Below, in pieces: positions 23,701 to 37,494 of a stretch of DNA of 37,494 nucleotides. The translations under genes were made by a program, and so were the position numbers. The DNA is from Bacteroidota bacterium. Lineage in GTDB: Bacteria; Bacteroidota; Bacteroidia; Flavobacteriales_F; PHOS-HE28. The stretch spans positions 1 to 37,494 of the forward strand of contig JAKQEI010000012.1 of NCBI GenBank assembly GCA_029573495.1, written 5' to 3'. The notes under the pieces were generated by a model that saw only the letters and a list, made by a program, of their open reading frames with translations, was not told the origin of the DNA and searched no databases. The stretch's first letter is position 1; each line of letters begins with the position of its first letter.

Positions 23701-26700
23701 GTGTGAGTTGAAGGGACAGCAGGATAGGTGATGCCGGTTCGATGTTGAAGAGCACCGTGATCGAACAACCATTCGCATCGGTGATGAGGACGGTGACCGC
23801 TCCCGCGCAGAATCCGGTCGCACTCGGCGTCCCCTGACCCGTTGCAGGTTCAGGTGTCCACAGATAGGTGTAGTCCGGAGCACCACCACTAACGACCACG
23901 CTCGCGGCGCCATCGCACAAGTTCCCGCAGGTCACGTTGGTCTTGTTCTGCAACGCCGTCATGGGCACGGGCTCCAGAATGGTGAAGGCGATGGTCGTGT
24001 CACAACCTGCTACATCCGTGATCGTCAGCTGATGGATCCCTGCACATAGGTCGGTCGCCGTGGTCGTTCCCTGTCCGGTCACCGGTCCGGGACCCCAGGT
24101 ATAGGTGAGTGTCCCGGTGCCTCCGGAAGCCGTCACCGAGGCGGTACCATCACAGGTACCCGGACAGCTGGTATCCGTCGTCGTGATGGTCGCGGAAATG
24201 GGCAGCGGCTCGACGAGCGTGAAGGTCACTGTCGTATCGCAAGCACCCGAGGTGATGGTCACAGCCCAGTCGCCGGCACAGAGCCCCGAGGCTTCCGAGG
24301 TCCCCTGGCCCACCGGTGGGGCTGGCGACCAAGCGTATGTGAAGGTCCCATTCCCACCTGTGGGTGCCAACGTGATCCGGCCATCGCAATCGCCCGCGCA
24401 GGTGACATCGGTCTGCGTGGCATTCGGTTCGATGGAGGGAGGCGCAGTGATCGTGAACGCGATGGTACTATCGCATCCCACCGCATCTGCCACGGTGAGG
24501 CTGTATGCCTGCGGGCAAAGCAGTGTGGCTCCGCTCGTCCCCTGCCCGGCTCCTGGCTCGGGGGTCCACGTGTAGGTATAGTCCGGCATACCGCCGGTCA
24601 CGATCACCCCGGCTTCGCCATCGCATACCCCCGGGCAGCTGGCCGGGAGCAACTGCAAGGAGATCAGGAGCGGAACCGCTTCTTCGATGACGAAGTCCAC
24701 GGTCAGGGTGCATCCGTTCACATCGGTGATAAGTACGGAGACCGGTCCTGCGCAGAAGCCGGTCGCATCAGGCGTTCCTTGTCCGGTCGCAGGTTCCGGC
24801 GTCCAGACGAACGTGAAGCCCCCATTCCCTCCTGCAGCCACGACCGAAGCCGTTCCGTCACAAAGGTTCCCGCAGGTGACGTTGGTCTGGCTCGAGGTGG
24901 CGGTGATCGGCGGTGGTTCGTTGATGAGGAAGGTGAGCGTGGTATCGCATCCACTGGCGTCGGACACCAACAAGGAGTAAGGACCCGCACACAAGCCGGT
25001 CGCCGTGGAGGTCCCCTGGCCACCAGCGGGTGCCGGTGTCCAAACGAAGGTGTAGTCCGGCGTGCCACCGCTCACGGAAACGGTCGCCTCACCGTCGCAA
25101 GTGCCTGCGCAGGTGGCATCCGTTGCATCCACCGAGGCCAACAATGGAGGCGGCGCGTTCACCGTGAAGGTGATCGCCGTATCACAACCAGCGACATCCG
25201 TGATCGTCACAAGCCAGTCTCCCGGACAGAGCCCGGATACCGAGGGTGTTCCTTGACCTGATGGTGGGGCTGGCACCCACAGATAGGTGTAACCCGGTGT
25301 TCCACCGGAGACCGTCAGGACAACAACACCATCACATGTGTTGGAACAGGAAGCGTCCGTCACATCCCCCTGCACATCGAAGGGTGGTGGAGCATCGATG
25401 GTGATGGACACCAGCGTATCGCAACCCGAAGGCACATCGGTGATCAGCACCGTGTACGCGCCGGCACACAAGCCGCCTGCGCTGCCGGTACCCTGTCCCG
25501 ATCCCGGGGGTGGGTTCCAGGCGAACGTGTATGGCCCTACGGTTCCGGATGGCGTCACGATGGCGGAGCCATCGCAGGTGGAGGCACAGGAGGCAGGTGT
25601 TGCCTGGATAGTGAGGTCGATCGCCGGCGGCTGCGCAATGACGAAGGCAACCGTGGTGTCACAACCGTTGGCATCCGCTATCCTGACGCTGTAGTTGCCG
25701 GCACAAAGGCCGTTGACGCTCGGCGATCCTTGAGCTGCCGGCGGCGGCGTCCACGTGATGGTGAGCCCACCGGTTCCACCGGTGGGCGCCACGCTGGCGG
25801 TGCCATCACATTCCCCAAAGCAACCTGCATCGGTGAAGGTGAGGTTGGGGATGATCGGTTGCACATTGAAGAAGAACGTCGTGTCGAAGGTGCACTGGTT
25901 GGCATCCCGGATCTGAAGGGTGTTCAGGCCTGCACAGAGCTGGTTGAACGAGGAACTTGAACCTGCCCCGTTGTTCCAATTGTATGTCGATGGCGAGACC
26001 CCGCCGATCGCCAGCGCGGTCCGGGTGCCATTGCAGACATCCGCGCAGGTGGGTGGTGTCCCTTGACCGAAGAAGATGACGCCGATGGGGGCCGGTTCGG
26101 TCACGTTCACCTGCACGGGACAGGAGATCCCTTGTCCCTGATCGGTCACCACAACGAGCTGCGGTCCGCCGCAAGCCGTGGTCCAGGTGGCCGTGGTCGG
26201 TCCTCCATTCAACCACGAATAAGTGAAGTTCCCGCTTCCACCGGAGACGGTGACCGTGACCGTTGCATTGCATTCACCGCGGCAGCGCACACCGAAACCG
26301 TTGTAGTTGGTCACCACCTGCGCGTTGACCGTGAAAGGCGTCTGGCCCGGATCCGTACCGCACACGTTGATGTCCCGGTCTCCGCCGATCAATGCATCCG
26401 AGGAGTGTTGCACCTCCCCGTTCACCTCCAGCACCGCCGAAGGAGCGAGCAGTTCACGCAGCACATCTCCGGTCGGGGCTTCCTGAAGGGACCACACCGA
26501 CCGACCGGCCATGATCGAACCACGCGCGGGCGCCTCCTCCACGACATGGTGCGCAGTGATCCGTGCGGCATTGGCGATGAGCGTACCCTGCCTGAGGCGC
26601 ACGGTACCATCCACGCGAAGGTCGCTGACCACCGACCATGAGCCGCTCCCGTCGAGGATCAGGTCCCCCGCGAACCGTGCGCCGCGCACATCGATGTTCA

Positions 26701-27091
26701 CCCCTTGTCGGCGCACTGCAAGCCGCACCGCCATGCCACCTTCCCATGCCACATCACCGGTCGCCGAGAGCTCGCCTGCGATCGATAGTTCGGAGCGTGT
26801 GTGACCCTCGAAGCGCACCGCGGCCGGACCGGCGTTAACCAGCATTGAACGGCATTCCGCGCGACCCTCCGTCACGATGTGCAGGTCGGCGGCGGCCGCG
26901 ACCACCACGTCCTCATCAATGCGAGGCACGGATGCCCCACCGGCCCCATCCTGCGTTGTGCTCCAGTGGGAGACATCCTCCCAACGACCATCACCTCCGA
27001 CCCAGTAACGGGTCTGCGCCGCAACGGTGGTCGCCCAGGCGAACAGGAGGAAGGTCAGGAGCTTCGGAAGCAGTGCGTAGGTTCTATTCAC
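17747..27091 (-). CDS. SprB-like giant surface protein with 33 SprB repeats and type B sorting domain (3114 aa)
   Basis: The signal peptide ends TTVAAQ. The mature N-terminus RYWVGGDGRWEDVSHWS starts a beta-rich region of about 240 residues, of a kind common in Bacteroidota surface proteins. Then come 33 SprB repeats (about 265-2830), each with (T)CxGxCDGtasvtxsGGtg-YtYxW, a QGT...LCAG turn and a tDxxGC strand. Four cysteines per unit are typical. Two PKD-like beta-sandwiches follow (AGPDQQVCTGTITTLDGSAS and DAGVDQTIFINETATLGG). The last 90 residues, from VIPNGFTPNADGSND to PYTGPLTIIR, form the type B sorting domain. SprB of Flavobacterium johnsoniae is a mobile adhesin moved along the cell during gliding; adhesion is the inferred role here, and gliding cannot be judged from this window. 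The gene lies 12 bp after one PorP gene and 10 bp before another. Confidence 0.93.
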   Translation of the reverse strand: MNRTYALLPKLLTFLLFAWATTVAAQTRYWVGGDGRWEDVSHWSTTQDGAGGASVPRIDEDVVVAAAADLHIVTEGRAECRSMLVNAGPAAVRFEGHTRSELSIAGELSATGDVAWEGGMAVRLAVRRQGVNIDVRGARFAGDLILDGSGSWSVVSDLRVDGTVRLRQGTLIANAARITAHHVVEEAPARGSIMAGRSVWSLQEAPTGDVLRELLAPSAVLEVNGEVQHSSDALIGGDRDINVCGTDPGQTPFTVNAQVVTNYNGFGVRCRGECNATVTVTVSGGSGNFTYSWLNGGPTTATWTTACGGPQLVVVTDQGQGISCPVQVNVTEPAPIGVIFFGQGTPPTCADVCNGTRTALAIGGVSPSTYNWNNGAGSSSSFNQLCAGLNTLQIRDANQCTFDTTFFFNVQPIIPNLTFTDAGCFGECDGTASVAPTGGTGGLTITWTPPPAAQGSPSVNGLCAGNYSVRIADANGCDTTVAFVIAQPPAIDLTIQATPASCASTCDGSAIVTPSGTVGPYTFAWNPPPGSGQGTGSAGGLCAGAYTVLITDVPSGCDTLVSITIDAPPPFDVQGDVTDASCSNTCDGVVVLTVSGGTPGYTYLWVPAPPSGQGTPSVSGLCPGDWLVTITDVAGCDTAITFTVNAPPPLLASVDATDATCAGTCDGEATVSVSGGTPDYTFVWTPAPAGGQGTSTATGLCAGPYSLLVSDASGCDTTLTFLINEPPPITATSSQTNVTCGNLCDGTASVVAAGGNGGFTFVWTPEPATGQGTPDATGFCAGPVSVLITDVNGCTLTVDFVIEEAVPLLISLQLLPASCPGVCDGEAGVIVTGGMPDYTYTWTPEPGAGQGTSGATLLCPQAYSLTVADAVGCDSTIAFTITAPPSIEPNATQTDVTCAGDCDGRITLAPTGGNGTFTYAWSPAPPVGQGTSEASGLCAGDWAVTITSGACDTTVTFTLVEPLPISATITTTDTSCPGTCDGTASVTASGGTGTLTYTWGPGPVTGQGTTTATDLCAGIHQLTITDVAGCDTTIAFTILEPVPMTALQNKTNVTCGNLCDGAASVVVSGGAPDYTYLWTPEPATGQGTPSATGFCAGAVTVLITDANGCSITVLFNIEPASPILLSLQLTPTSCPNTCDGEAGVIASGGVFPYTYAWSPEPGNGQGTDEVSGLCAQAYLLTVTDDVGCDTTIAFTITSPDAIAPNGTQTDVTCAGDCDGTITLAPTGGDGNYAFNWVPQPPQGQGTASVSGLCAGEWSVTITSGACDTTITFTIVEPAPITVDLVTADASCTGECDGTANVTASGGTGALDYVWSPAPTIGQGTPDASGFCPGPYTLTITDAAGCDTTIAFVINDPAPITASVVTSPETCAGPCTGSATITASGGTGTIQYEWQPPPGGGQGTPTATGLCAGTTYAVTLSDDNGCDTTLTITIDPSAVIVPNSSSTPVTCNGSCDGSATVGPTGGAEPYTYAWSPPPPVGQGTPTASGLCAGTVQVTIVDNAGCSIVAEVLITEPPPIIADVVITDPLCAGICDGSIALTTSGGASGYTYLWSPQPPAGQGTAVISSLCAGTWNVLITDDTGCTQQATYITTEPAPLTLSVAATPSQCQVCVGAATATYAGGAGMLTVEWTNAQGAVVGNADTVTDLCAGLYTVTVRDENGCSVQRLVPITDTDGEDLTVTDGATSCPNVCDGSVSVAFTCSDPACSVAWSDADGNALATEVNAISGLCPGEYYVAVSNASGCVTIDTATVFAPVVLTVNTSSSPVSCAGECDGTATVGIVSGTPAYTFTWDPPPGAGQGTPNATGLCAGVQQVTIGDGNGCETVVEVLITEPPPLTLFNSIVLGTSCAGACNGNITLVVSGGSGNYNFVWSPAPASGQGSSAAFGFCAGNVNVTITDDNGCSLQRTFTVPEPAPLSVTTSTTQSTCPLCDGTATATVVGGTGSYAYSWMLGATLVSTDPVATGLCGGIYTLTVTDDFGCSQQTLVQVSDSDAEVLEVVDGQTLCANGCDGQVAVNFSCSVDPCTVQWTDADGNVLGQDPVLTGLCVGTYTVQVTNGSGCVSIAEAVVGTSTAIVPNLSSTQVSCPGACDGTATVGPVGGVEPYTYTWSPDPGAGQGSPQATGLCAGVYEVLIADASGCDTTVQVLIIEPLPITASAVVTDATCFGTCDGSIVVTGVGGTGALTYLWDPLPPNGQGSNGAFDLCAGNYTLTITDANGCTAVFSYEVLEPDELVLNISTTSSECGLCNGEAVVSVSGGQDPYLFLWTSGAAILGTNDTLSSICSGFYTVQVTDAAGCTADALVPVQDLNGEVLATTADTTTCPGVCDGSAEVQFNCGTPLCSVAWFDANGNDLGLSTEQLTGLCGGTYLVAVTNGIGCLSIDTAIVAEPDPVIANLSTTPVSCAGVCDGTATVGPTGGLPPYTIEWNPVPTNGQGNPMAEGLCAGTAEVTITDDAGCSIVVPFLILGPDPLVVTSDVTSITCNGACDGAIQLTAQGGTGAYTYTWDPVPPNGQGSAIANDLCADTWTCAVSDVNGCVTIVTVDLVDPPVLDAMVTTTDNTCFGDCEGTASLMITGGVEPYTVSWTDQNGATFAVDTTNVDLLCADAYNARITDANGCSIDLPFTITEGTPIDPGLVFLGETCNGPCDGTASVNPAGGAGSFTYLWQPDASGQGTMSVSDLCAGDWSVTITDGLGCDTLVPFTVLPFAPIVDNAVVTDLLCNSVCDGAVATNASGGIGALAYAWSPEPPNGPDGTSATDLCAGSYVLTITDAVGCDSTFNYTVQEPPVLEFTVNTLANASCADAADGAIATTAFGGVPSYSFAWNGPGAFTAITEDLADLVPGAYDLTLSDANGCTIDTVITVGADVTIIADAGPDQQVCTGTITTLDGSASIGVVTWSWRDADGNEIGTTPIIDLPVLPAGDHLFTLVVSDGPCTSTDVVLVTSLALPIADAGVDQTIFINETATLGGSPSGPTGAVFSWAPDSLLSDASIAAPIASPSVTTWFTLTVVAPNGCVDTDSVLVTVVPTVVIPNGFTPNADGSNDAWQIDLIELFPDCEVEVYNRWGELLFRSVGYKQPWDGRYKDGLVPVGTYYYVIELNDERFPEPYTGPLTIIR
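18640..26320 (-). repeat. Tandem array of 33 SprB repeats with a four-unit higher-order period
   Basis: Single units are about 80 residues (about 240 bp). Related units recur every fourth position. The first Cys codon of the diagnostic unit, with a VSC or VTC start, lies at 22742, 21788, 20837 and 19886, giving spacings of 954, 951 and 951 bp. An earlier block shows the same period: units starting VTCGNLCDG at 24872 and 23927, 945 bp apart, are each followed by matching EAGV, ITLAPTGG and TASGGTG units. Confidence 0.85.
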
Positions 27092-29261: not shown

Positions 29262-30323
29262 TCAGCCGCGGGCGAGCTGTTCCAGCCGAGCCTTGTTCTT
29301 GATCCGGATGCTACGGCCCTGCGTATCGATCAAGGCATCCTCCTTCAGTTCGGTCAGGCAGCGGATCAACGATTCAGTGGCGGTACCCACGATGGTGGCG
29401 AGGTCCTCACGGCTCATGTGCAGGCCGAGGTCGGCATCATCCCCGGTCCCGAACCGCTCATGCACGCGCAAGAGGGCCTGTGCCACCCGCTGCCTCACAC
29501 TGGAGTAGGCCAGTTGCAGCAGGTGCTCCTCCATCTCCCGGGCATTGCCCGCGAGCATCTTGATGAAGCGGATGCTGACATCGCGATCCTTGTAGAGCAA
29601 GGATAGCAGGTCCTCTCGCGGCACCAGCGCCACCTCGGTGTCCTCCAATGCCTCGGCCGTTTCCACCGCACGGCCGTTCTCGAACAGGCCCATGTAACCG
29701 ACCAGGTCCCCGCTGCCATGCAGACCCGTCACCAGTTCCTTGCCATCGTGGTTGATCTTGAAGGTGCGCAATTTGCCGCTAACGATGTAGGGCAGCTGCC
29801 GGAGCTCATCTCCTTCGTGGAAGAGGACCTCCTTCTTCCTGAACTCCCTTGTCCGACGCTCCTTGGCCAGGTCCTTCAGCGGATCCAGGGACCTGGCCTG
29901 GTCAATGAAGCGGTTGAAGCCCTCGAAGCCCTTGTCGAAACCTTTTCGGAACAGATCGCTGCGCTTGAGGCGGCCTTCGATCGCGTTGAGCAGCTCGCTC
30001 TCCTCGAATGGTTTGGTGAGGTAATCATCCGCGCCGAGCTCCATGCCTTTGCGTACATCGCCACGCTCCGCTTTGGCGCTGAGGAATACGAAGGGGACCT
30101 CCGCCGTTGCGGGATCGCGGCCGAGCATATGAAGCACCCCGTAACCGTCCAGTTCGGGCATCATGATGTCACAGAGCACCAGATCGGGCACCTCCTTCCG
30201 GGCGGCTTCCACCCCCTTTCTACCATTCTCCGCCTTGATCACGCGATAATTGGCCAGCTCGAGGATCTCAGCGGTGTTCTCGCGCATATCGGCGTCGTCC
30301 TCGATCAACAGGATCGTCTTCAT
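29262..30323 (-). CDS. Response regulator with Crp/Fnr output domain (REC-cNMP-HTH fusion)
   Basis: 353 residues. The receiver domain (1-120) has acidic pocket E8-D9-D10, phospho-acceptor D52 in the CDIMMPELDG motif, S82 and K104. After a helical linker, a Crp-type beta-roll (about 155-270) leads into a Crp family helix-turn-helix (about 295-340, SREDLATIVGTATESLIRCL). The beta-roll lacks the cAMP-contacting Glu and Arg of Escherichia coli CRP: the stretch reads GYMGLFENGRAVETAE. Phosphorylation, not cyclic nucleotide, is therefore the likely signal. It is the third gene of an operon with the dioxygenase-like gene and the PAS kinase, and its start overlaps the kinase stop by 4 bp, so the kinase is its expected partner. 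It is a candidate for the factor that binds the TGA-N6-TCA operators found nearby, including the one before its own operon. Confidence 0.92.
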   Translation of the reverse strand: MKTILLIEDDADMRENTAEILELANYRVIKAENGRKGVEAARKEVPDLVLCDIMMPELDGYGVLHMLGRDPATAEVPFVFLSAKAERGDVRKGMELGADDYLTKPFEESELLNAIEGRLKRSDLFRKGFDKGFEGFNRFIDQARSLDPLKDLAKERRTREFRKKEVLFHEGDELRQLPYIVSGKLRTFKINHDGKELVTGLHGSGDLVGYMGLFENGRAVETAEALEDTEVALVPREDLLSLLYKDRDVSIRFIKMLAGNAREMEEHLLQLAYSSVRQRVAQALLRVHERFGTGDDADLGLHMSREDLATIVGTATESLIRCLTELKEDALIDTQGRSIRIKNKARLEQLARG

Positions 30324-31552
30324 GGGGAGAGGTGTTGCGGTAATTCGACCTTGAACATGGTGGCTCCGGGCCTGCTGGTGAAGGAAATGGAACCGTGCAT
30401 CAGGTCGAGGTATCGTTTGACCAGGTTCAGCCCAAGGCCTGTGCCCTGGATCGTGACGGCGTTGCTCCCACGGAAGAAACGTTCGAACAGGTGGACCTGG
30501 TCCTCCGCCGGAATGCCCATCCCTTCATCGGTGACGGTGACCAGCACCCGGCCCTCGTTGATGGTCGTGTGCAGGCGGATCGGCTTGTCCTCGGGGCTGT
30601 ACTTCACCGCGTTCGTCACCAGATTGGTGATGATGTTGCTGAGCATCTGCTGGTCCAGTGTGACGTTCCGTTCAGCACCATCATGGTCGTAGGTGATGGT
30701 CTGTCCGGTCCGGGTCAGCGCACGCAGCTCCTCGATCAGTTCGATGCATTGGTGCACCAGGTCCGCCGGCGCGGGTTGCACCACCACCTCGCCTTGTTCG
30801 ATCCGTTCCAACGACAGGAACTCGTTCAACATGGCGGTCATCTCACGGACCTTGCCACGGATGCGTGCCACATGCTTCCCCACGCGTTCGTCACCCGCCC
30901 CATCCGTGTACCTGGCGATCAGGTCCACACTGCTCATGATGGTGCTCAACGGGGTCCTGAACTCATGGCTCGCCATCGCTACGAAGCGGCTCTTCAGGGC
31001 ATGGAGCTCGCGTTCCTTATCGAGCGCCTCGCGCAGCCCACGTTCCGCTTCCCTCAACTGTTGGGTGCGTTGCTCAACGCGGTCCTCGAGCTCCTGGTTC
31101 GAACGTTGGAGGGCCTTCTCGGCCTCATGTCGGAGGGTGATGTCCGTGACCAGGCCCATCACATACGTATGCCCGTCAAGCTCGAAGTGGTTCAAGCTGA
31201 TCTCCACCGGGAACTCGGATCCATCCTTGCGCCTTCCGCGCAGGTCCATGCCGATACCCATCGAGCGCCTGACCGGCTTCGCGTGATAGGCGGCACGATG
31301 CTCGATGTGTCGCGCACGCAACTGTTGAGGGATCAATACTTCGATCGGCTGACCGAGCAACCCCTTGTCCGAGTACCCGAACATGACGGCGAAACGCGGG
31401 TTGTGCATGAGGATCGCGCCGGTCGGATCCACCACCACCAACCCTTCGGCCGCGGCGGTGAAGAGCATTTCGCAGATACGCGCGACATCCGCAGGGCCGA
31501 ATGCCTCGACGGTGGTGTTCGACATGCGACCAAGGTAGCTGGCTGCCCGCAT
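30320..31552 (-). CDS. PAS domain sensor histidine kinase
   Basis: 410 residues with no membrane segments, so probably cytoplasmic. A PAS domain (about 20-140) ends in the PAS-type GRRKDGSEFPVEISL and MGLVTDITLRHEAE motifs, followed by a coiled-coil linker. In the HisKA domain the phospho-accepting His is H196 (ASHEFRTPLS). The HATPase domain has the N box with N314 (TNLVTNAVKYS), the G1 box DEGMGIP (D342) and the G2 box GTGLGL. It would autophosphorylate and pass phosphate to the downstream receiver-Crp protein. The PAS ligand cannot be told from sequence. The start at 31552 is 3 bp after the stop of the dioxygenase-like gene, which suits coupled translation. A second in-frame ATG at 31525 is an alternative and would leave all domains intact. 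Confidence 0.92.
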   Translation of the reverse strand: MRAASYLGRMSNTTVEAFGPADVARICEMLFTAAAEGLVVVDPTGAILMHNPRFAVMFGYSDKGLLGQPIEVLIPQQLRARHIEHRAAYHAKPVRRSMGIGMDLRGRRKDGSEFPVEISLNHFELDGHTYVMGLVTDITLRHEAEKALQRSNQELEDRVEQRTQQLREAERGLREALDKERELHALKSRFVAMASHEFRTPLSTIMSSVDLIARYTDGAGDERVGKHVARIRGKVREMTAMLNEFLSLERIEQGEVVVQPAPADLVHQCIELIEELRALTRTGQTITYDHDGAERNVTLDQQMLSNIITNLVTNAVKYSPEDKPIRLHTTINEGRVLVTVTDEGMGIPAEDQVHLFERFFRGSNAVTIQGTGLGLNLVKRYLDLMHGSISFTSRPGATMFKVELPQHLSP

Positions 31553-31555
31553 TGA

Positions 31556-32077
31556 TCAAGCGGAAGGTCCCGCCGCACGCCATTGATCGGCGCCTGTCCG
31601 TTCATCGAACACGCGCCATTTGCTCATTGGCGGTGCGTAGAGGTTGAGCGTGAACGCCCGCGTGGCGCCCTGGTTCTGGAAGCGGTGGATGGAGTTGCTC
31701 CGCGAAAGCTCCATCAGCTCACCGGTGTGTAAGCGCGAGGCCTTCCTGAGCCGCAGGGCCCCGTCCTCGAGCAGCTCGAACCGCTCCGCCACCAGTTCAC
31801 CCCCCAGCACACGGATCCAGGCCGTTTCGCTGTCGTAGTCATGGATGCTGGTCCGTTGTCCGGGTTCAAAGCAGATGACCAGCAACTCGAAACGAGCGTT
31901 CCGGACCACACAATTCCTCGTGTAGTTGGAAGGGTCCCACTTCAGGTAGGGCATCAGGTCCAGGCTGGCAGTGGCATACCGGGCCATGATGTCGCCGAAT
32001 AGCTCCGCAGAGGGCTCGCGCAAGAGCTCACGAACGAGCTCACCGATAGTGGTCAACGGTGTCGATACCGACGACAT
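31556..32077 (-). CDS. Cysteine dioxygenase-like cupin protein with a His-to-Tyr change at a metal ligand
   Basis: 173 residues of the cysteine dioxygenase type I family, which oxidises L-cysteine to cysteine sulfinate with a three-His Fe(II) centre. Colinear landmarks are YTRN (R54, the substrate carboxylate Arg), FELLVICFEPGQRTSIHD (H79, first iron ligand), SIHRFQN (H131, third ligand) and LNLYAPP (Y147, the active-site Tyr). The position of the second iron ligand is Y81 (HDY in place of HDH). The position of the crosslinked Cys is A86. The enzyme may be inactive, altered, or use another substrate. The ATG at 32077 was preferred over one at 32092, because the latter would begin at the predicted transcription start, only 6 bp from the -7 box. 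It heads an operon with the kinase and receiver-Crp genes. Confidence 0.82.
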   Translation of the reverse strand: MSSVSTPLTTIGELVRELLREPSAELFGDIMARYATASLDLMPYLKWDPSNYTRNCVVRNARFELLVICFEPGQRTSIHDYDSETAWIRVLGGELVAERFELLEDGALRLRKASRLHTGELMELSRSNSIHRFQNQGATRAFTLNLYAPPMSKWRVFDERTGADQWRAAGPSA

Positions 32078-32097
32078 GGGTTCCACGGGCATCGAGG

Positions 32098-32105
32098 CAA
32101 ACCTA
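32098..32105 (-). promoter_or_regulatory. -7 box of the dioxygenase-kinase-regulator operon
   Basis: The minus-strand TAGGTTTG matches TAnnTTTG perfectly. The start codon (32077) lies 21 bp beyond its end. No -33 TTTG is visible, but the operator at 32128-32141 is centred 29.5 bp upstream of its first base, as expected for an activator-dependent promoter. Confidence 0.65.
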
Positions 32106-32127
32106 CCGGGTGCACGGAGCGTGCGAT

Positions 32128-32141
32128 CTGACGATCGTCAG
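32128..32141. promoter_or_regulatory. Crp/Fnr-type operator CTGACGATCGTCAG
   Basis: A perfect 14-bp palindrome of the form TGA-N6-TCA, the half-site geometry shared by Crp and Fnr sites. It sits between divergent genes: the dioxygenase-like operon on the minus strand and the DUF983-regulator operon on the plus strand. Relative to the minus-strand -7 box it lies near -41.5. No matching box is found at the same distance on the plus side. Confidence 0.6.
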
Positions 32142-32233
32142 TCCGCGGAACAGGCCTTCGAGGGGGCGCCAAGTTGGCATGGCGGGTGAGGAACATCACC
32201 AACGGGACCGGACCAGGTCCGGAACTTCGCGAC

Positions 32234-32647
32234 ATGGCTTGGAAGGATACGATGCTGTACAGCATCCTGGGCTTCAAGTGCCCCTATTGTCACACCGGGG
32301 ACTTCTTCGTATCGCATCCGTACGACCTGAAGCACACGGGGGATGTCCATGAGCACTGCGGCCAATGCGGTCGCCGGTTCAATATCGAGCCCGGATTCTA
32401 TTACGGTGCCATGTACGTTTCCTATGCCATCGGGGTCGCCGCCATGGTCACGGTCTGGGTGGCGTGCAGCGTCCTGTTCCCGGACCTCTCCCCGACCGGC
32501 CTGGTGATCGCCATCCTGTCCACCCTGTTGGTGGGCGCCCCCTATTTCTACGCACTGAGCAAGATCATCTGGGCGAACCTGTTCTTCAAATACGATCGCA
32601 CAGCCCTCAATTCCGGCGGAGGGAAGATGATCGACGGATCGCGGTAA
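32234..32647 (+). CDS. DUF983 family zinc-ribbon membrane protein
   Basis: 137 residues. The N-terminus MAWKDTMLYSILGFKCPYC carries a CPYC pair (C16, C19), followed by a CGQC pair (C42, C45), a four-Cys zinc-ribbon-like arrangement. The family pattern NIEPGFYYGAMYVSY and two transmembrane helices (about 59-81 and 89-112) follow. The molecular function of DUF983 is not known. The ATG at 32234 was preferred to a TTG 60 bp upstream, because homologues start a few residues before the first CxxC. The Crp/Fnr regulator gene begins 9 bp after the stop, so the two form an operon. Confidence 0.82.
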   Translation: MAWKDTMLYSILGFKCPYCHTGDFFVSHPYDLKHTGDVHEHCGQCGRRFNIEPGFYYGAMYVSYAIGVAAMVTVWVACSVLFPDLSPTGLVIAILSTLLVGAPYFYALSKIIWANLFFKYDRTALNSGGGKMIDGSR

Positions 32648-32656
32648 CTTGCCCGC

Positions 32657-33259
32657 ATGTTCGTCGACCCCGAATTGAAGCGTGCGATCGATCAGGTCGG
32701 CATCCGCAAGCGGGTCCCTGCAGGCACGGAGCTGATGCGCGTGGGGGATACGATCACGCATATCCCGATCGTTGAGCACGGCAGCCTGCGCATCCTTGCC
32801 CAGGATGGTGAAGGTCACGAACGCTACCTGTACCACATCCTCGCGGGTGAGTCCTGCGCATCCTCCCTCACCTGCTGCGTTTCCAAGCGGATGAGCGCCG
32901 TGCAGGCCATCGTGGAAGAGGATGCTGATCTGCTCCTCATACCGGTGCGGTACGTGGACGAGTGGATGGTGCATCCGGAATGGCGCAAGTATGTGAACGA
33001 GGTACAGGCCCAGCGCTTCCAGGAGCTGCTGGAGGCCTTCGAGGTGGTGGCCTTCCGCCGGCTGGATGAACAGCTTTGGAACTACCTGATGAAGAGGTCC
33101 CAGGCCTCCGGCGAGCATCTGCTGCACCTGACCCACCAGCAGATCGCCGATGAGCTCAGTTCACCCCGCGAAGTGATCACCCGCTTGCTTCAGCAATTGA
33201 AGGTGCGCGGCATGGTAACGCTCGGCCGCGGCATGGTCGAGGTGCATCCGGTCGGCTGA
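32657..33259 (+). CDS. Crp/Fnr family transcriptional regulator
   Basis: 200 residues. A Crp-type beta-roll sensor domain (about 10-110) and dimer helix (about 112-140) precede a winged helix-turn-helix (about 152-195, LTHQQIADELSSPREVITRLLQQL). No N-terminal Fnr-type four-Cys iron-sulfur cluster is present, and the cAMP-binding Arg pattern is absent. Instead, three cysteines cluster in the beta-roll at C67, C73 and C74 (GESCASSLTCC), where Crp has its nucleotide-binding loop. Thiol-based sensing is therefore conceivable. It is encoded with DUF983, divergent from the dioxygenase-kinase-regulator operon and near the thioredoxin, rhodanese and SQR genes. It is an alternative candidate for the protein that binds the TGA-N6-TCA operators. 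Confidence 0.9.
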   Translation: MFVDPELKRAIDQVGIRKRVPAGTELMRVGDTITHIPIVEHGSLRILAQDGEGHERYLYHILAGESCASSLTCCVSKRMSAVQAIVEEDADLLLIPVRYVDEWMVHPEWRKYVNEVQAQRFQELLEAFEVVAFRRLDEQLWNYLMKRSQASGEHLLHLTHQQIADELSSPREVITRLLQQLKVRGMVTLGRGMVEVHPVG

Positions 33260-33270
33260 CCGGGGGCCGA

Positions 33271-33654
33271 TCATTTCTCCACCGGCGCACCAGCCTTCTT
33301 CCAGGCGCTCATTCCACCGTCGAGATCAAGGACCTCCTTGAATCCCATCTCGCGGAGCATGTTCCTGGCGTCCTCACTGCGACCACCGGCAGCGCAATAG
33401 AGACGCACGGGCTTCTTCTTGTCCAGCTCCCCGATACGGGACTTGAAGTCATCGCTGAACCAATCGATGTGCAGCGCTCCCTGGATATGCCCGGTATTCC
33501 ATTCCTGCGGAGTACGCACATCCACGAGCTGTACACCGCCCTTGGCCAATTCGGCCTGGAGGGTCGCAACATCCACGGTGTTCGGGGACTGGGCCATGGT
33601 CACATTGACAGTGATCCCCAGCAGAAAGGTGGAAAGGAGGGCTATCCCGCGCAT
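33271..33654 (-). CDS. Exported rhodanese-like domain protein
   Basis: 127 residues. A signal peptide (MRGIALLSTFLLGITVNVTMAQ) is followed by one rhodanese domain. Its motifs are LVDVRTPQEWNTGHIQGALHID, the catalytic loop YCAAGGRSEDA with C87 as persulfide-carrying Cys, and LDGGMSAWKKAG. The loop has the CxxGxRS form of active single-domain rhodaneses, which move sulfane sulfur between carriers. The ATG at 33654 was chosen over one 45 bp upstream because it begins the signal peptide. The gene lies 19 bp after the thioredoxin gene and is probably co-transcribed with it. A degenerate internal promoter is also possible (palindrome at 33705-33717). Confidence 0.88.
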   Translation of the reverse strand: MRGIALLSTFLLGITVNVTMAQSPNTVDVATLQAELAKGGVQLVDVRTPQEWNTGHIQGALHIDWFSDDFKSRIGELDKKKPVRLYCAAGGRSEDARNMLREMGFKEVLDLDGGMSAWKKAGAPVEK

Positions 33655-33673
33655 GATCGGAGGGTTTAACGGT

Positions 33674-33967
33674 CTAAAGATGCGGAGCGATGGCGTCATG
33701 TAGTTGAGCGGCGCTCATGACCCCAGACCGCCGCCAGACCACCTTCCCGTTCTTGAAGATCATCAAGGTGGGGACCCCGCGCACCTGGTAGGCCTGCGCG
33801 GCGGCGGGATTCTTGTCCACATCGACCTTGATGACCGAGGCGCGCTCACCCACCGCGCCCTTGAACTCGGCGAGGATGGGGGGCATCATCTTGCACGGCC
33901 CGCACCATTCGGCGAAGAAGTCCACAAGTACCGGCTTGTCCCCGGCGATGATCTCCTGGAAGGTCAT
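33674..33967 (-). CDS. trxA: Thioredoxin
   Basis: A 97-residue single-domain thioredoxin. It has the redox motif WCGPCK (C22 and C25), DVDKNPAAAQAYQVRGVPT with the conserved cis-Pro, and MIFKNGK. No signal peptide is present, so it is cytoplasmic. It reduces protein disulfides and can supply electrons to peroxiredoxins; a probable peroxiredoxin begins at the end of the window. It precedes the exported rhodanese gene by 19 bp. No operator with the TGA-N6-TCA spacing seen at neighbouring promoters was found upstream. The symbol follows family usage; whether this is the main housekeeping thioredoxin is not known. Confidence 0.92.
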   Translation of the reverse strand: MTFQEIIAGDKPVLVDFFAEWCGPCKMMPPILAEFKGAVGERASVIKVDVDKNPAAAQAYQVRGVPTLMIFKNGKVVWRRSGVMSAAQLHDAIAPHL

Positions 33968-34068
33968 GTTCGTACGTTATTGGTCCGTGGATCCTGAGGA
34001 TCAAGTTCCGCGCCAGGCCGGATCCCTGTTATCCTGTCAGTCACGCGCCGGTGTCCCACTCCGAGGGC

Positions 34069-34272
34069 TCACTCCTCATGCTTCTCTTCCTCCTTGTGCC
34101 GTTTGAAGGAATTGAACAGGAGGCCGCCCATGAACGCACCGTACAACGAACTGTTCACCGGGCTACTCGTGATGGCGCAACCGGTGGTGCATCCGAAGTA
34201 CACCCAATAGAAGTACCCTCCAATGGCGCCCAGGGCCACCCCCATCAGTGTCAATAGCACGATCCTCCTCAT
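34069..34272 (-). CDS. DUF6132 family small membrane protein
   Basis: 67 residues. It has a transmembrane helix (about 4-22), then the motif YFGCTTGCAITSSP with two cysteines, a second hydrophobic segment (SLYGAFMGGLLFNS) and a charged tail (KRHKEEEKHEE). The pattern GC..GC.ITS.p..S.lYGa..G matches DUF6132, a Bacteroidota family often found beside sulfur or rhodanese-type genes; the function is unknown. The ATG at 34272 overlaps the stop of the upstream DUF2892 gene as ATGA, so it was preferred to an ATG 9 bp upstream. Confidence 0.75.
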   Translation of the reverse strand: MRRIVLLTLMGVALGAIGGYFYWVYFGCTTGCAITSSPVNSSLYGAFMGGLLFNSFKRHKEEEKHEE

Positions 34273-34469
34273 CGTTTGCACGTGCTCCAGCCGAATAACG
34301 TGTACAACGGGCAGAAGCTCACCAGGCTCGTCAGGACGAACACCCCGGCCAGGATGAGCAGTACGGCACCCATGGTGCCGGTGATCACTCCCTGGTAGTA
34401 GAGCACACCTACCACGATGGCGATGAGGATGCGCACGAGGCGATCCGCTGAGCCCATGTTCGCTTTCAT
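34269..34469 (-). CDS. DUF2892 (YgaP-type transmembrane domain) protein
   Basis: 66 residues: MKANMGSADRLVRILIA, followed by two hydrophobic helices and the end SFCPLYTLFGWSTCKR. The N...DR..R...G pattern and the CPLY...G..TC end are typical of the YgaP-type membrane domain. In Escherichia coli that domain is fused to a rhodanese; here a separate exported rhodanese lies nearby. It is translationally coupled to the DUF6132 gene. Its promoter shares an operator with the divergent SQR-like gene. Confidence 0.82.
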   Translation of the reverse strand: MKANMGSADRLVRILIAIVVGVLYYQGVITGTMGAVLLILAGVFVLTSLVSFCPLYTLFGWSTCKR

Positions 34470-34489
34470 GATCGTTCGGATTGTTCCCT

Positions 34490-34497
34490 CAAAGCTC
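34490..34497 (-). promoter_or_regulatory. -7 box of the DUF2892-DUF6132 operon
   Basis: The minus-strand GAGCTTTG matches 5 of 6 fixed bases of TAnnTTTG. Its first base is 29.5 bp from the centre of the operator at 34520-34533, and the start codon at 34469 lies 21 bp beyond its end, mirroring the SQR promoter on the other side. Confidence 0.5.
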
Positions 34498-34519
34498 GCA
34501 CATCCCGGCCGGAACGATG

Positions 34520-34533
34520 GTGAGGATCATCAC
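34520..34533. promoter_or_regulatory. Shared Crp/Fnr-type operator GTGAGGATCATCAC between divergent operons
   Basis: GTGA-N6-TCAC is an inverted repeat with Crp/Fnr geometry. Its inner bases share the TGAnGATCnTCA core with the operator at 32128-32141. It lies midway between the DUF2892 and SQR-like genes, at equal distance (29.5 bp) from a -7 box on each strand. One bound dimer could thus activate both promoters from near -41.5. Confidence 0.65.
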
Positions 34534-34555
34534 GGATCAGGTGGGGCCGACCCGA

Positions 34556-34563
34556 TAGGTTCG
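34556..34563 (+). promoter_or_regulatory. -7 box of the SQR-like operon
   Basis: TAGGTTCG matches 5 of 6 fixed bases of TAnnTTTG. It begins 29.5 bp after the operator centre (34526.5) and ends 20 bp before the ATG at 34583. No -33 element is visible. Confidence 0.55.
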
Positions 34564-34582
34564 TGGAACAATACGGCTCACC

Positions 34583-35785
34583 ATGACCCAACATCACCAA
34601 CTCCTTGTCATCGGCGGCGGAAACGCAGGGCTATCGGCAGCGGCCCTTCTCCTGCGGAAAGCCCCTGGTACCCGGGTCGCGATCGTGGAACCCTCGGAGA
34701 AGCACTACTACCAGCCTGCGTGGACCCTTGTAGGCGGCGGGGCGTTCAACATCCAGGACACCGAGCGCAACGAAGCGGACTTCATCCCGAAAGACGCGAC
34801 CTGGATCAAGGGGCGCGTGGCCAGCTTCCAGCCGGAGGTCAACACGGTGACCCTGGAGGATGGGGTCGTGATCGGTTATGACCAGCTCCTGGTCTGTCCG
34901 GGGATCCAACTGGATTGGAACGCGGTGAAGGGCCTGCCGGAAGCCATCGGGAAGAACGGCGTGACATCCAACTACAGCTTCAAGTACGCACCCTACACCT
35001 GGGAGCTGATCAAGGGGCTCCGGAAGGGCAGGGCCCTCTTCCACAATCCGCACACGCCCGTGAAATGCGGGGGTGCGCCGCATAAGATCATGTACCTGGC
35101 CGCTGATCACTGGCGGCGCGAAGGGGTCCTGAAGGAAATGGACATCCAGTATTGGAGCGGTGCCGGCAAACTGTTCTCCGTGCCGCAATACGAGAAGACC
35201 CTGCTCAAGGTCGTGGAGCGCGGCGGGATCAAGCTCAACTTCAACTGGCGTTTGGACGAGATCGATGGACCGGGCAAACGAGCGCGCTTCGTCGGCTTCG
35301 GCGAGAAGAACAAGGACGAGGAGCGCTGGGTGGAATATGACATGATCCATGTGACGCCACCTCAAAGCGCGCCCGACTTCATCAAGCAGAGCCCGCTTGC
35401 GAACCAGGCGGGATGGGTGGATGTGGACAAGCACAGCCTGCAGCATGTCCGGTACAAGAACATCTGGAGCATCGGCGATGCGGCCGGACTGCCGACCTCC
35501 AAGACCGGGGCCGCGATCCGCAAGCAGACACCGACGGTCGTGGCGAACATCCTCGACGCGATGGCGGGCAGGACCCCACACGTGGATTACAACGGGTATA
35601 CCTCCTGTCCGTTGGTCACCGGCTATGGCAAGTTGGTGCTCGCCGAGTTCGATTACAACAACAAGCCACAGGAGACATTCCCCTTCGACCAGAGCAAGGA
35701 GCGCTGGAGCATGTACCAATTGAAGAAGCAGGTGCTTCCCCGGCTCTACTGGAACTTCATCTTACGTGGACAGGCACAAGGCTGA
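34583..35785 (+). CDS. Sulfide:quinone oxidoreductase-like FAD flavoprotein (type II / SQOR-like)
   Basis: 400 residues of the two-dinucleotide-fold flavoprotein type. The N-terminal FAD motif is LLVIGGGNAGLSAA. Two spaced cysteines, C162 (PVKCGGAPHK) and C342 (YTSCPLVTGYGK), match the active-site pair of mitochondrial-type SQOR. The FAD-contacting IWSIGDAAGLPTSKTGAAIRKQ follows at 295-315. The C-terminus (LKKQVLPRLYWNFILRG) resembles the amphipathic membrane-binding tail of these enzymes. The family oxidises sulfide to sulfane sulfur and passes electrons to the quinone pool. The nearby rhodanese, thioredoxin and dioxygenase-like genes fit a sulfide/sulfane sulfur context. Substrate is not proven. 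The exported protein gene follows 11 bp later. Confidence 0.88.
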   Translation: MTQHHQLLVIGGGNAGLSAAALLLRKAPGTRVAIVEPSEKHYYQPAWTLVGGGAFNIQDTERNEADFIPKDATWIKGRVASFQPEVNTVTLEDGVVIGYDQLLVCPGIQLDWNAVKGLPEAIGKNGVTSNYSFKYAPYTWELIKGLRKGRALFHNPHTPVKCGGAPHKIMYLAADHWRREGVLKEMDIQYWSGAGKLFSVPQYEKTLLKVVERGGIKLNFNWRLDEIDGPGKRARFVGFGEKNKDEERWVEYDMIHVTPPQSAPDFIKQSPLANQAGWVDVDKHSLQHVRYKNIWSIGDAAGLPTSKTGAAIRKQTPTVVANILDAMAGRTPHVDYNGYTSCPLVTGYGKLVLAEFDYNNKPQETFPFDQSKERWSMYQLKKQVLPRLYWNFILRGQAQG

Positions 35786-35796
35786 ACGAACGACCC

Positions 35797-37386
35797 ATGA
35801 AGATCGGAACACTCCTATTGCCCATCGCGATCACCGCATCCGTGATCGCCACCGCCCAACCCTTCGCCGGCCGCGTCCTTGTGCTGGAGGAGATAGCACC
35901 CGCTGGCATGCCCGGCCTGCAATCCTTCGCCTGGGGAACCCATGATGGCCAGTGGCTGCTGATCGGTGGACGTACCGATGGCCTTCATCGCCGGCAACCA
36001 CCGGTCAGCTTCCTGGCCTCGGGCAACAACGTCAACGCGTACGTGGTGGACCCTGCGACCTGGCAGGTCTGGTCAGCTTCCCTGAACGCGTTGCCGCAAG
36101 ACCTGCTGGAACAGTTGCAAAGCACGAACATGGAGTTCGAACAACAAGGGACGACACTGTACTGCATCGGTGGCTATGGATACTCCCCCTCCAACGCCGA
36201 TCATGTGACCTACGCCTTCCTCTCGGCCATCGACCTGCCCGGTGTGATGGACGCCATCCGCAACGGCACCTCGATCACACCCTACTTCCGTCAGATCGCC
36301 GATCCCCGCATGGCCGTCACCGGAGGCCAGTTGAGGAAGGTCGGCGACCATTTCAACCTTGTGGGTGGTCAGCGTTTCATGGGCCGCTACAATCCGATGG
36401 GACCCGACTTCGGCCCCGGATTCGTCCAGGAATACACGAATGCGCTCCGCCGTTTCATCATCCTCGATGATGGGGTCGACCTCTCCATTGCTGACTACTG
36501 GACCCTGGTGGACACCGTGAACCTCCATCGGCGTGACTACAACCTGCTGCCGCAGATCTTCCCGGACGGCCAGGAAGGGCTCACCGTCTTCTCCGGTGTC
36601 TTCCGCTATGATGCGGACCTGCCCTGGTTGAACACTGTCGACATCCGTGGCACGGATGTGAGTGTGAACAACGCATTCGAGCAGTTGTTCAATCAGTACC
36701 ACTCGGCGCACGCCTGTCTGTACGAAGGATCAACACAGACCATGCGCTCCATCTTCTTCGGGGGTATCGGAAGATACCAGCCAGCTGCAGGTGGTGGCCT
36801 GCAGGACGATACCAACGTACCCTTTGTGAACACGATCAGCCTGGTTGAACGCGATGGGTCCGGCCAGATGACGGAGAGTGCGATCGGGCAGATGCCGGCA
36901 TTGCTGGGTGCCAGCGCCGAATTCATCCCCTGGCCGGGCACCGAACAGACGAGCTCCGGCATCCTGCTCCAGGACGCGTTCGCCGGGGATACCGTGGTGC
37001 TCGGCCACATCGTGGGCGGCATCGAGAGCTCGGCGCCGAACATCTTCTTCATCAACACCGGCACGCAGAGCACGGCCACGAACAAGGTGTACCGCGTGCT
37101 GCTGGTGGACCCTTCAACCGCGGTGAACGACGCGGACCGAACGGAAGGGGCCCTGCGCGTCACCACGAATGGACAGGTCCTGAACATCGAGGCGTCGCTT
37201 CAAGGGAACAGTGCGGCCCTCGTACGTCTCATTGACAGCACCGGGCGTGTCGTTCGCCACATCGCTGCCGGCGTGGGTACAGGTGAACATCGCTGGACCG
37301 TGGACATGCGCGACCTCGCAGCCGGACCATACCTCATCGAGGTGCGCGATGAACACCTGCTGCTCACCCGTCGCATCATGCACTGA
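35797..37386 (+). CDS. Exported kelch-like protein with T9SS type A sorting domain
   Basis: 529 residues. A signal peptide (MKIGTLLLPIAITASVIATAQ) is followed by repeated beta-propeller-like blades of about 60-70 residues, with GG...W motifs such as WLLIGGRTDG, LYCIGGYGYSPSN, FNLVGGQRFMGRYN and SIFFGGIGRYQPAA, suggesting a kelch-type propeller. The last 75 residues or so, with ALVRLIDSTGRVVR and AAGPYLIEVRDEHLLLTRRI, look like a type A sorting domain, although the usual PNP start is weak. The ATG at 35797 was chosen because it starts the signal peptide; an open frame further upstream overlaps the SQR gene and is a shadow. It lies 11 bp downstream of the SQR-like gene, so the two are probably co-transcribed. 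The function is unknown. Confidence 0.85.
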   Translation: MKIGTLLLPIAITASVIATAQPFAGRVLVLEEIAPAGMPGLQSFAWGTHDGQWLLIGGRTDGLHRRQPPVSFLASGNNVNAYVVDPATWQVWSASLNALPQDLLEQLQSTNMEFEQQGTTLYCIGGYGYSPSNADHVTYAFLSAIDLPGVMDAIRNGTSITPYFRQIADPRMAVTGGQLRKVGDHFNLVGGQRFMGRYNPMGPDFGPGFVQEYTNALRRFIILDDGVDLSIADYWTLVDTVNLHRRDYNLLPQIFPDGQEGLTVFSGVFRYDADLPWLNTVDIRGTDVSVNNAFEQLFNQYHSAHACLYEGSTQTMRSIFFGGIGRYQPAAGGGLQDDTNVPFVNTISLVERDGSGQMTESAIGQMPALLGASAEFIPWPGTEQTSSGILLQDAFAGDTVVLGHIVGGIESSAPNIFFINTGTQSTATNKVYRVLLVDPSTAVNDADRTEGALRVTTNGQVLNIEASLQGNSAALVRLIDSTGRVVRHIAAGVGTGEHRWTVDMRDLAAGPYLIEVRDEHLLLTRRIMH

Positions 37387-37394
37387 TCGCGAGG

Positions 37395-37408
37395 GTGACC
37401 TTCGTCAC
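37395..37408. promoter_or_regulatory. Crp/Fnr-type operator GTGACCTTCGTCAC
   Basis: GTGA-N6-TCAC has the same outer half-sites as the operator at 34520-34533. It starts 9 bp after the stop of the exported-protein gene and is centred 29.5 bp upstream of a -7 box at 37431-37438, which serves the gene starting at 37456. Confidence 0.6.
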
Positions 37409-37430
37409 TGCTCGAGGAGGTGCGCATCCG

Positions 37431-37438
37431 TTCCTTTG
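37431..37438 (+). promoter_or_regulatory. -7 box of the gene at 37456
   Basis: TTCCTTTG matches 5 of 6 fixed bases of TAnnTTTG. It is placed 29.5 bp after the operator centre (37401.5) and ends 18 bp before the ATG. This is the same architecture as the other three promoters. Confidence 0.5.
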
Positions 37439-37455
37439 TGGCCAATAGAACGAAC

Positions 37456-37494
37456 ATGGAGAACACCATCCACATGCCGCGCATCGGCGACCAG
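37456..37494 (+). CDS. N-terminal fragment of a probable peroxiredoxin (3' truncated by window end)
   Basis: Only 13 codons are visible: MENTIHMPRIGDQ. The PRIGD start resembles the N-terminus of Bacteroidota AhpC/TSA-type peroxiredoxins, in which MPRIGDxAP leads into the thioredoxin fold. The peroxidatic Cys would lie outside the window, so the identification rests on a short match plus the redox context. A complete operator and -7 box precede the start. Confidence 0.45.
   Translation, partial: MENTIHMPRIGDQ

Follow-up and report, generated by a model that had tools for sequence, protein, structure and literature searches.

Analysis of a 37,494-nucleotide stretch of DNA from a Bacteroidota bacterium (contig JAKQEI010000012.1; hereafter the window) revealed a set of promoters with one fixed layout, which are probably activated by Crp/Fnr-family proteins from a class II position and form a sulfide/persulfide/thiol-redox regulon in an uncultured Flavobacteriales lineage. 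The layout consists of a twofold TGA-N6-TCA operator and a -7 box of the TAnnTTTG type, the first base of the box lying 29.5 bp from the operator centre, which leaves 22 bases (N22) between the two elements. Comparison with related and distant genomes shows the fixed spacing, the operator symmetry, the set of genes and the rarity of operators at any other spacing. The class II sulfur/redox interpretation made in a first-pass annotation of the window was supported overall, with corrections on the operator classes, a fifth promoter and the -33 element. The window is the entire contig C20 of its genome (61.7% GC); the assembly has 306 contigs and an estimated contamination of 8.5%.

Promoter layout, spacing and transcription start

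Four promoters with this architecture had been described in the first-pass annotation. Direct reading and rescanning located their three operators and four boxes as claimed, each box 29.5 bp from the operator centre and with 6/6, 5/6, 5/6 and 5/6 of the fixed bases. A fifth promoter (DUF983-Crp, 32186-32229, box 4/6) had been overlooked. The claim that an ATG follows each box by 18-21 bp is ambiguous for cysteine dioxygenase, where an in-frame ATG at 32092 is only 5 bases past the box and the ATG at 32077 fits. The promoter elements are as follows.

32128..32141, minus strand: operator CTGACGATCGTCAG, CTGA class, cysteine dioxygenase promoter (read directly and rescanned)
32098..32105, minus strand: -7 box TAGGTTTG, 6/6, cysteine dioxygenase promoter (read directly and rescanned)
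32186..32199, plus strand: operator GTGAGGAACATCAC, absent from the first-pass annotation, ahead of the DUF983 gene and the Crp gene P0001 (scan)
32222..32229, plus strand: -7 box GAACTTCG, 4/6, at the same spacing from operator GTGAGGAACATCAC (scan)
34520..34533, no strand assigned: operator GTGAGGATCATCAC, common to two divergent promoters (scan)
34490..34497, minus strand: -7 box GAGCTTTG, 5/6, DUF2892 promoter (scan)
34556..34563, plus strand: -7 box TAGGTTCG, 5/6, SQR promoter (scan)
37395..37408, plus strand: operator GTGACCTTCGTCAC, peroxiredoxin promoter (read directly and scan)
37431..37438, plus strand: -7 box TTCCTTTG, 5/6, peroxiredoxin promoter (scan)

A total of 17 TGA-N6-TCA sites in the window, scored in two orientations at 11 offsets, gave 374 cells; four cells reached at least 5/6, all at one offset, and these are the four promoters first described. 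The earlier argument that such agreement is unlikely by chance was borne out and proved conservative; its rate of 19/4096 (0.0046) is too high for this GC-rich window, where 5/6 boxes occur at 54 of 74,974 positions (0.00072). With 34 oriented sites, the binomial probability of at least four such boxes at a given single offset is 1.2e-8, or 7.5e-7 after multiplication by 61 offsets.

Analysis of the window together with 40 loci from relatives (some genomes contributing two loci) identified 166 oriented GTGA-N6-TCAC operators. Boxes of at least 5/6 were found 51 times at N22, six times at N23 and twice at N21, and the other 58 offsets in the range 0-60 account for 14 together; N22 thus holds 51 of the 73 boxes. 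When inner operator spacings of 0-12 were compared, a peak was found with N6 only, and the reversed sequences contained only two oriented operators as a control. The same spacing was found in distant Bacteroidota. Of 190 loci from a profile scan of named genomes, 80 were retained, and the 51 of these that were used (L199-L249; 42% GC, many Cytophagales) have 24 boxes of at least 5/6 at N22, compared with a mean of 1.02 per offset over offsets 0-60.

Searching 45 mutually related genomes of the genus for GTGA-N6-TCAC-N{12,32}-TAnnTTTG gave 108 matches in 37 genomes (105 when near-duplicates are counted once), and the same pattern read backwards gave one. Gaps of 21, 22 and 23 account for 14, 40 and 41 matches, respectively (95/108), and the remaining 18 allowed gaps total 13. 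This genome-wide enrichment is qualified by coding matches: nine of the 30 matches with fetched flanks fall within an open reading frame as called by a crude caller. One coding stretch gives six of the 108 matches, all with gap 22 (seen within an open reading frame in G000, G003 and G004, judged by likeness in G014, G037 and G043), and without it gap 22 holds 34 matches. In the window's own genome, the composite pattern with up to two mismatches was noisy (123 matches against 55 in the control); the exact pattern gave six matches against none. Two of these are a single site seen on both C20 and C28, which overlap, and a third (C100) lies inside an open reading frame.

Mapped starts in Flavobacterium psychrophilum place TAnnTTTG at -12 to -5 (PMC9723704). 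The operator centre is predicted to fall at -41.5, because it lies 29.5 bp upstream of a box whose first base is at -12, and -41.5 is the class II position of the E. coli Crp activator (PMC5957442). The earlier placement of a Crp/Fnr dimer near -41.5 was therefore upheld for a twofold operator, with the box position taken from F. psychrophilum, another flavobacterium, rather than from the window organism. This operator position points to activation and not repression. A Crp-family dimer at -41.5 would border the polymerase site on its upstream side, in place of a -35-type element, and would let RNA polymerase use a -7 box at -12 to -5 that is often off-consensus. Absence of the -33 TTTG element, which had been read as a sign of activator dependence, is not diagnostic (PMC7366714).

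Downstream of 88 distinct sites, 17 ATG triplets lie 4-6 bases beyond the box, six lie at 7-14 bases and 62 at 15-24 bases, as expected if transcription begins about five bases past the box. Four bases between box and ATG place the A at +1. The DUF983 ATG at 32234 coincides with the predicted first transcribed base of the fifth promoter, and an ATG exactly at the predicted +1 was also seen for peroxiredoxin (L151, L153, L155, L156) and DUF983 (L163, L165) loci; transcripts of this kind may be leaderless.

The E. coli -10 hexamer begins at -12. Class II Crp/Fnr promoters of E. coli share with the window promoters the twofold operator centred at -41.5 (PMC5957442), and in both the -10/-7 element starts 29.5 bp from that centre. 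Unlike them, the window promoters have the Bacteroidota TAnnTTTG core element, a near-invariant spacing, another regulator and other targets. The action of Crp/Fnr proteins on this unusual core promoter is poorly charted. The 22 bp rule, found in Flavobacteriales and Cytophagales, could serve as a sequence-only finder of directly regulated genes and predicts start sites in uncultured members.

Orthologous genes, operator classes and candidate regulators

Enrichment of the layout upstream of orthologous sulfur/redox genes, proposed as a check in the first-pass annotation, was supported: sites recur before SQR, DUF2892, peroxiredoxin and cysteine dioxygenase orthologues. For the gene-wise counts, a site was accepted when a box matching 4/6 or better lay at N21-N23, in loci with at least 100 bp upstream. 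A site was found in 17/17 DUF2892 promoters and 14/15 peroxiredoxin promoters. SQR had 22 matches, of which 21 were scanned (L083, with its 5' end missing, was left out); sites were present in 20, with N22 spacing in 14 and N23 in six, and L088 has none (11/11 in the gene-wise set). Cysteine dioxygenase had 43 matches, of which 30 were fetched, and TGA-N6-TCA with a box of at least 4/6 at N22 occurs in 29 of them, L267 being entered as a miss (11/11 in the gene-wise set). DUF6132 loci have a site in 7/24, and 16 of the other 17 come after a DUF2892 match. Among controls, mostly internal genes, sites were found in 1/34 for Crp and 1/19 for rhodanese-2. In Algoriphagus, 13/15 loci have a site about 95 bp ahead of Crp, and four distant loci (L228, L238, L241, L245) have an additional site ahead of a divergent SQR match.

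Genes behind other genus matches, judged by eye, include thioredoxin reductase (4), ArsR-type regulators (4, one of them profile-tested), rhodanese-thioredoxin (1) and DUF983 (2); a TauE exporter lies directly behind one match and further on behind two (by eye; one profile-tested).

Box sequences were found to be gene-specific: [GC]AnCTTTG in 17/17 DUF2892 promoters, TCnCTTTG in 9/14 peroxiredoxin promoters, TA[GC]GTTCG in four of the five SQR promoters of the window's type and TA[GC]GTTTG in 14/29 cysteine dioxygenase promoters. The SQR sites at N23 are L089, L090, L092, L096, L097 and L098 (G010, G041, G044, G029, G012 and G009); these genomes either have P0001 relatives of only about 40% identity or yielded none. 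Operator-box spacing may vary with the type of regulator.

The window promoters are those of sulfide/persulfide/thiol genes, in line with the sulfur/redox regulon proposed earlier, but the operators fall into two classes, GTGA..TCAC and CTGA..TCAG, and the promoters probably belong to two regulons. The base before TGA is G in SQR (20/20), DUF2892 (17/17) and peroxiredoxin (14/14) sites, and in cysteine dioxygenase sites it is C in 26/29, A in two and G in one. The pattern CTGAC-N4-GTCAG-N{12,32}-TAnnTTTG gave 24 matches in 19/45 genomes and none in the control, 13 of them at N22 and five at N21. Operators of MBL-rhodanese genes are mostly hybrid, with CTGA on the upstream side in 7/8 and a variable far end (C, A or G).

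Two regulators encoded in the cluster are the likely readers. In CRP the recognition helix residues are Arg180, Glu181 and Arg185, and Arg180 reads the outer G. P0001, a Crp-family regulator, carries S-P-R-E-V-I-T-R, in a register that agrees with the CRP model match. REC-Crp, a receiver-Crp protein, carries T-A-T-E-S-L-I-R (invariant in 8/8), with the Glu and Arg kept and the Arg180 equivalent not kept. This difference would explain the GTGA/CTGA split. P0001 is the likely reader of GTGA..TCAC operators because it is encoded in the cluster, has the CRP-like R-E-x-x-x-R helix and has a site at its own transcription unit. REC-Crp likely reads the CTGA..TCAG operator of its own cysteine dioxygenase-kinase-REC-Crp operon, which would amount to autoregulation. 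P0001 and REC-Crp would constitute a natural regulator pair whose operators differ at one base, possibly matching one helix residue. The idea that CTGA sites are confined to genomes with REC-Crp was dropped, as REC-Crp is present in 41/45 genomes.

It is rather unlikely that one regulator (P0001, REC-Crp or another Crp-family protein) reads both classes, with the flanking base only tuning affinity. The core TGA-N6-TCA and N22 are identical in both classes and the MBL-rhodanese hybrids would suit such a protein, but the base before TGA follows the gene, as counted above, and the CRP residue responsible for reading this base has different counterparts in the two helices.

Analysis of P0001 placed it in the Crp/Fnr superfamily, with PF00027 and PF13545 both above cut-off. 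The sequence of its pocket is GESCASSLTCC. Among 31 aligned relatives (down to 37% identity), Cys67 and Cys73 are invariant and Cys74 is present in 30; Cys67 and Cys73 were also found in 121/121 proteins comprising P0001 and the best 120 of 4,489 (relatives at least 60% identical). The 51/51 in the distant set is no evidence, since the scan pattern that selected those loci contains the cysteines. The cAMP phosphate-binding arginine is Arg82 of CRP. The aligned position 79 of the 121 proteins holds T, V, I, E, S, M and others, and the neighbouring position 78 is R or K in 120/121, so a shift in the alignment is possible. P0001 has no cysteine ahead of residue 67 and so lacks the N-terminal cluster of FNR. 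Identity of P0001 with cAMP-CRP or FNR is thus not supported.

P0001 may sense thiol or sulfur state. Given the sulfide-oxidation targets, sensing of sulfur species by its conserved cysteines would be the simplest proposal, the signal being a sulfur species or the thiol redox state. Cysteine-based persulfide sensing works through a conserved cysteine pair that forms a di- or tetrasulfide. A bolder reading, somewhat less likely than not, is that P0001 and its relatives are a Bacteroidota Crp/Fnr persulfide sensor. A Cys67-Cys73 bond in the former cyclic-nucleotide pocket would sense sulfane sulfur, and the protein would switch on genes of sulfide oxidation while bound at a strict class II position of TAnnTTTG promoters. 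In some cases a single operator would serve a divergent pair of promoters, and an ArsR-type operator would form a further layer between Crp site and box.

Alternative explanations and known regulators

Several observations weigh against a sulfur regulon read by P0001. Counts drawn from related genomes are not independent. Sites were found in only 8/16 MBL-rhodanese promoters and 8/13 DUF983 loci, window counted. The genome encodes five cNMP-domain regulators, and three others besides P0001 keep the helix Glu and Arg, which weakens the case for P0001 as sole reader by elimination. SQR sites occur in G009, G011, G016, G029, G038 and G041 (the assemblies of G011, G016 and G029 being 73-83% complete), genomes that gave no P0001 relative at 1e-30, and because of these six genomes P0001 is not the sole possible reader. 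The layout is also not limited to sulfur genes, as an operator of the nosZ cluster in the window's own genome shows it.

These last three points, together with a site ahead of an ScdA-type Fe-S repair gene, would accord with a different Crp/Fnr protein, one sensing oxygen, NO or carbon state, as chief reader, the sulfur genes being part of a general redox regulon. We regard this as unlikely: P0001 alone of the five regulators has R-E-x-x-x-R, expected for an outer G, and it lies inside the cluster, with a site ahead of Crp in most Algoriphagus loci. Regarding the sites themselves, an operator at L032 11480-11553 separates two divergent units, a cytochrome c/nosZ-like operon and another gene, and has a 5/6 and a 4/6 box at the usual spacing; L032 12954-12996 is the site ahead of the ScdA-type gene. 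Weaker composite matches (L033 4609-4651, L035 6753-6795, L036 629-671) lie near apparent phenylacetate, homogentisate and tryptophanase-type catabolism genes, judged by eye.

Repression, in which the bound protein blocks polymerase from the -35 side and sulfide releases it, is very unlikely. Sulfide-responsive ArsR-type regulators are repressors (PMC9774590), and an ArsR-type gene is located downstream of some sites; boxes are nearly all at N21-N23, however, and hardly any are at 0-20, where a simple repressor could sit freely. Chance meeting of common TGA-N6-TCA words with boxes has a negligible probability and was rejected: most of the 17 sites in the window lack a box and some genome-wide matches are coding, but a single offset is conserved across the window, the genus genomes and the distant loci.

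Among known systems, SqrR/BigR, CstR and FisR resemble the proposal for P0001 in their control of sulfide oxidation and persulfide genes and in their conserved cysteines (PMC9774590). They are of ArsR, CsoR and Fis type, whereas P0001 belongs to the Crp/Fnr family, does not have their fold and is placed as an activator. The sulfide sensors named in the available text of that review are CstR, SqrR/BigR, PigS and FisR, with no Crp/Fnr protein among them (PMC9774590), and P0001 would be a candidate sulfide-responsive activator from a family not named there. HcpR and CrpPg of Porphyromonas gingivalis are also Bacteroidota Crp/Fnr-family regulators; HcpR is a heme/NO sensor, CrpPg is reported to be cAMP-independent and is tied to virulence genes, and a fixed -41.5 layout is not described for them in the available text (PMC12750200, PMC12040651). 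Of the solved structures, PDB 3dv8 is closest to P0001 by sequence; it is a Crp/Fnr-family protein for which the depositors name no function, and its cysteines align with Cys67 and Cys73, and Cys74 is not kept. Carbon sensing was predicted for Crp/Fnr homologs of a Flavobacteriales metagenome-assembled genome (PMC8510549), and neither Crp nor Fnr is mentioned in the available text of PMC12596196. No Bacteroidota Crp/Fnr-type activator of a sulfide regulon was found in the open-access literature searched. The layout, which distant Bacteroidota share, suggests an apparently undescribed circuit for responding to sulfide.

Genes of the cluster and further sites

The genes of the cluster are listed below with their profile matches.

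29262..30323, minus strand: REC-Crp (receiver, cNMP and Crp HTH), gene 3 of the cysteine dioxygenase operon (Pfam Response_reg, cNMP_binding, HTH_Crp_2)
30320..31552, minus strand: PAS-histidine kinase, gene 2 of the cysteine dioxygenase operon (Pfam PAS, HisKA, HATPase_c)
31556..32092, minus strand: cysteine dioxygenase type I, start 32092 or 32077 (Pfam CDO_I 5.9e-18)
32234..32647, plus strand: DUF983 protein (Pfam DUF983 5.6e-05, barely above cut-off)
32657..33259, plus strand: Crp-family regulator P0001 (Pfam HTH_Crp_2, PF13545, and cNMP_binding, PF00027)
33271..33657, minus strand: rhodanese-like protein (Pfam Rhodanese 4.9e-24)
33674..33967, minus strand: thioredoxin (Pfam Thioredoxin 2.1e-27)
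34072..34272, minus strand: DUF6132-like membrane protein (Pfam DUF6132 E 0.0007, under cut-off)
34272..34469, minus strand: DUF2892/YgaP-like transmembrane protein (Pfam YgaP-like_TM 6.9e-20)
34583..35785, plus strand: SQR-like flavoprotein (Pfam Pyr_redox_2; NCBIfam type III SQR model 1e-65, under its cut-off)
37456..37494, plus strand: 5' part of the peroxiredoxin gene, truncated by the contig end (NCBIfam peroxiredoxin above cut-off)

Contig C28 overlaps the window end and carries the peroxiredoxin gene at full length (L031 4186-4836, minus strand), together with an MBL-fold protein with two rhodanese stretches that resembles persulfide dioxygenase; the latter has a separate operator and box at L031 4054-4096. 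Downstream of a site at 835-879 on contig C58 lie genes for an ArsR-like protein, a TauE-like protein and a second MBL-rhodanese protein; these names rest on similarity to profile-tested relatives. An Rfam scan of 31500-37494 gave no match. Two very long open reading frames of 2845 and 3114 amino acids occupy the minus strand at 8126-16663 and 17747-27091.

The operator at 34520-34533 lies at equal distance from two divergent boxes. Operators flanked on either side by a box scoring 5/6 or better were found twice among the loci scanned, in the window and in G007 (L151); a third, with 6/6 boxes, is in the genus match list (G037, C282). Other relatives have separate operators for the neighbouring genes.

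An ATAG-N6..9-CTAT dyad was found between Crp operator and box in 22/108 genus matches (for example L059, L062, L063, L064, L070 and L075, and in the window's own genome L304 835-879), several of them ahead of ArsR-type and TauE genes, which suggests a second, ArsR-type operator within the same promoter. Four matches (L060 and those in G009, G023 and G025) have TTAGT..ACTAAC immediately before the box, and the gene after the L060 site encodes a membrane protein of 137 residues that matched no Pfam family. Sites at L049, L057, L068, L069 and L072 lie ahead of a family of lipoprotein-like proteins of about 250 residues, which by eye look MbnP-like.

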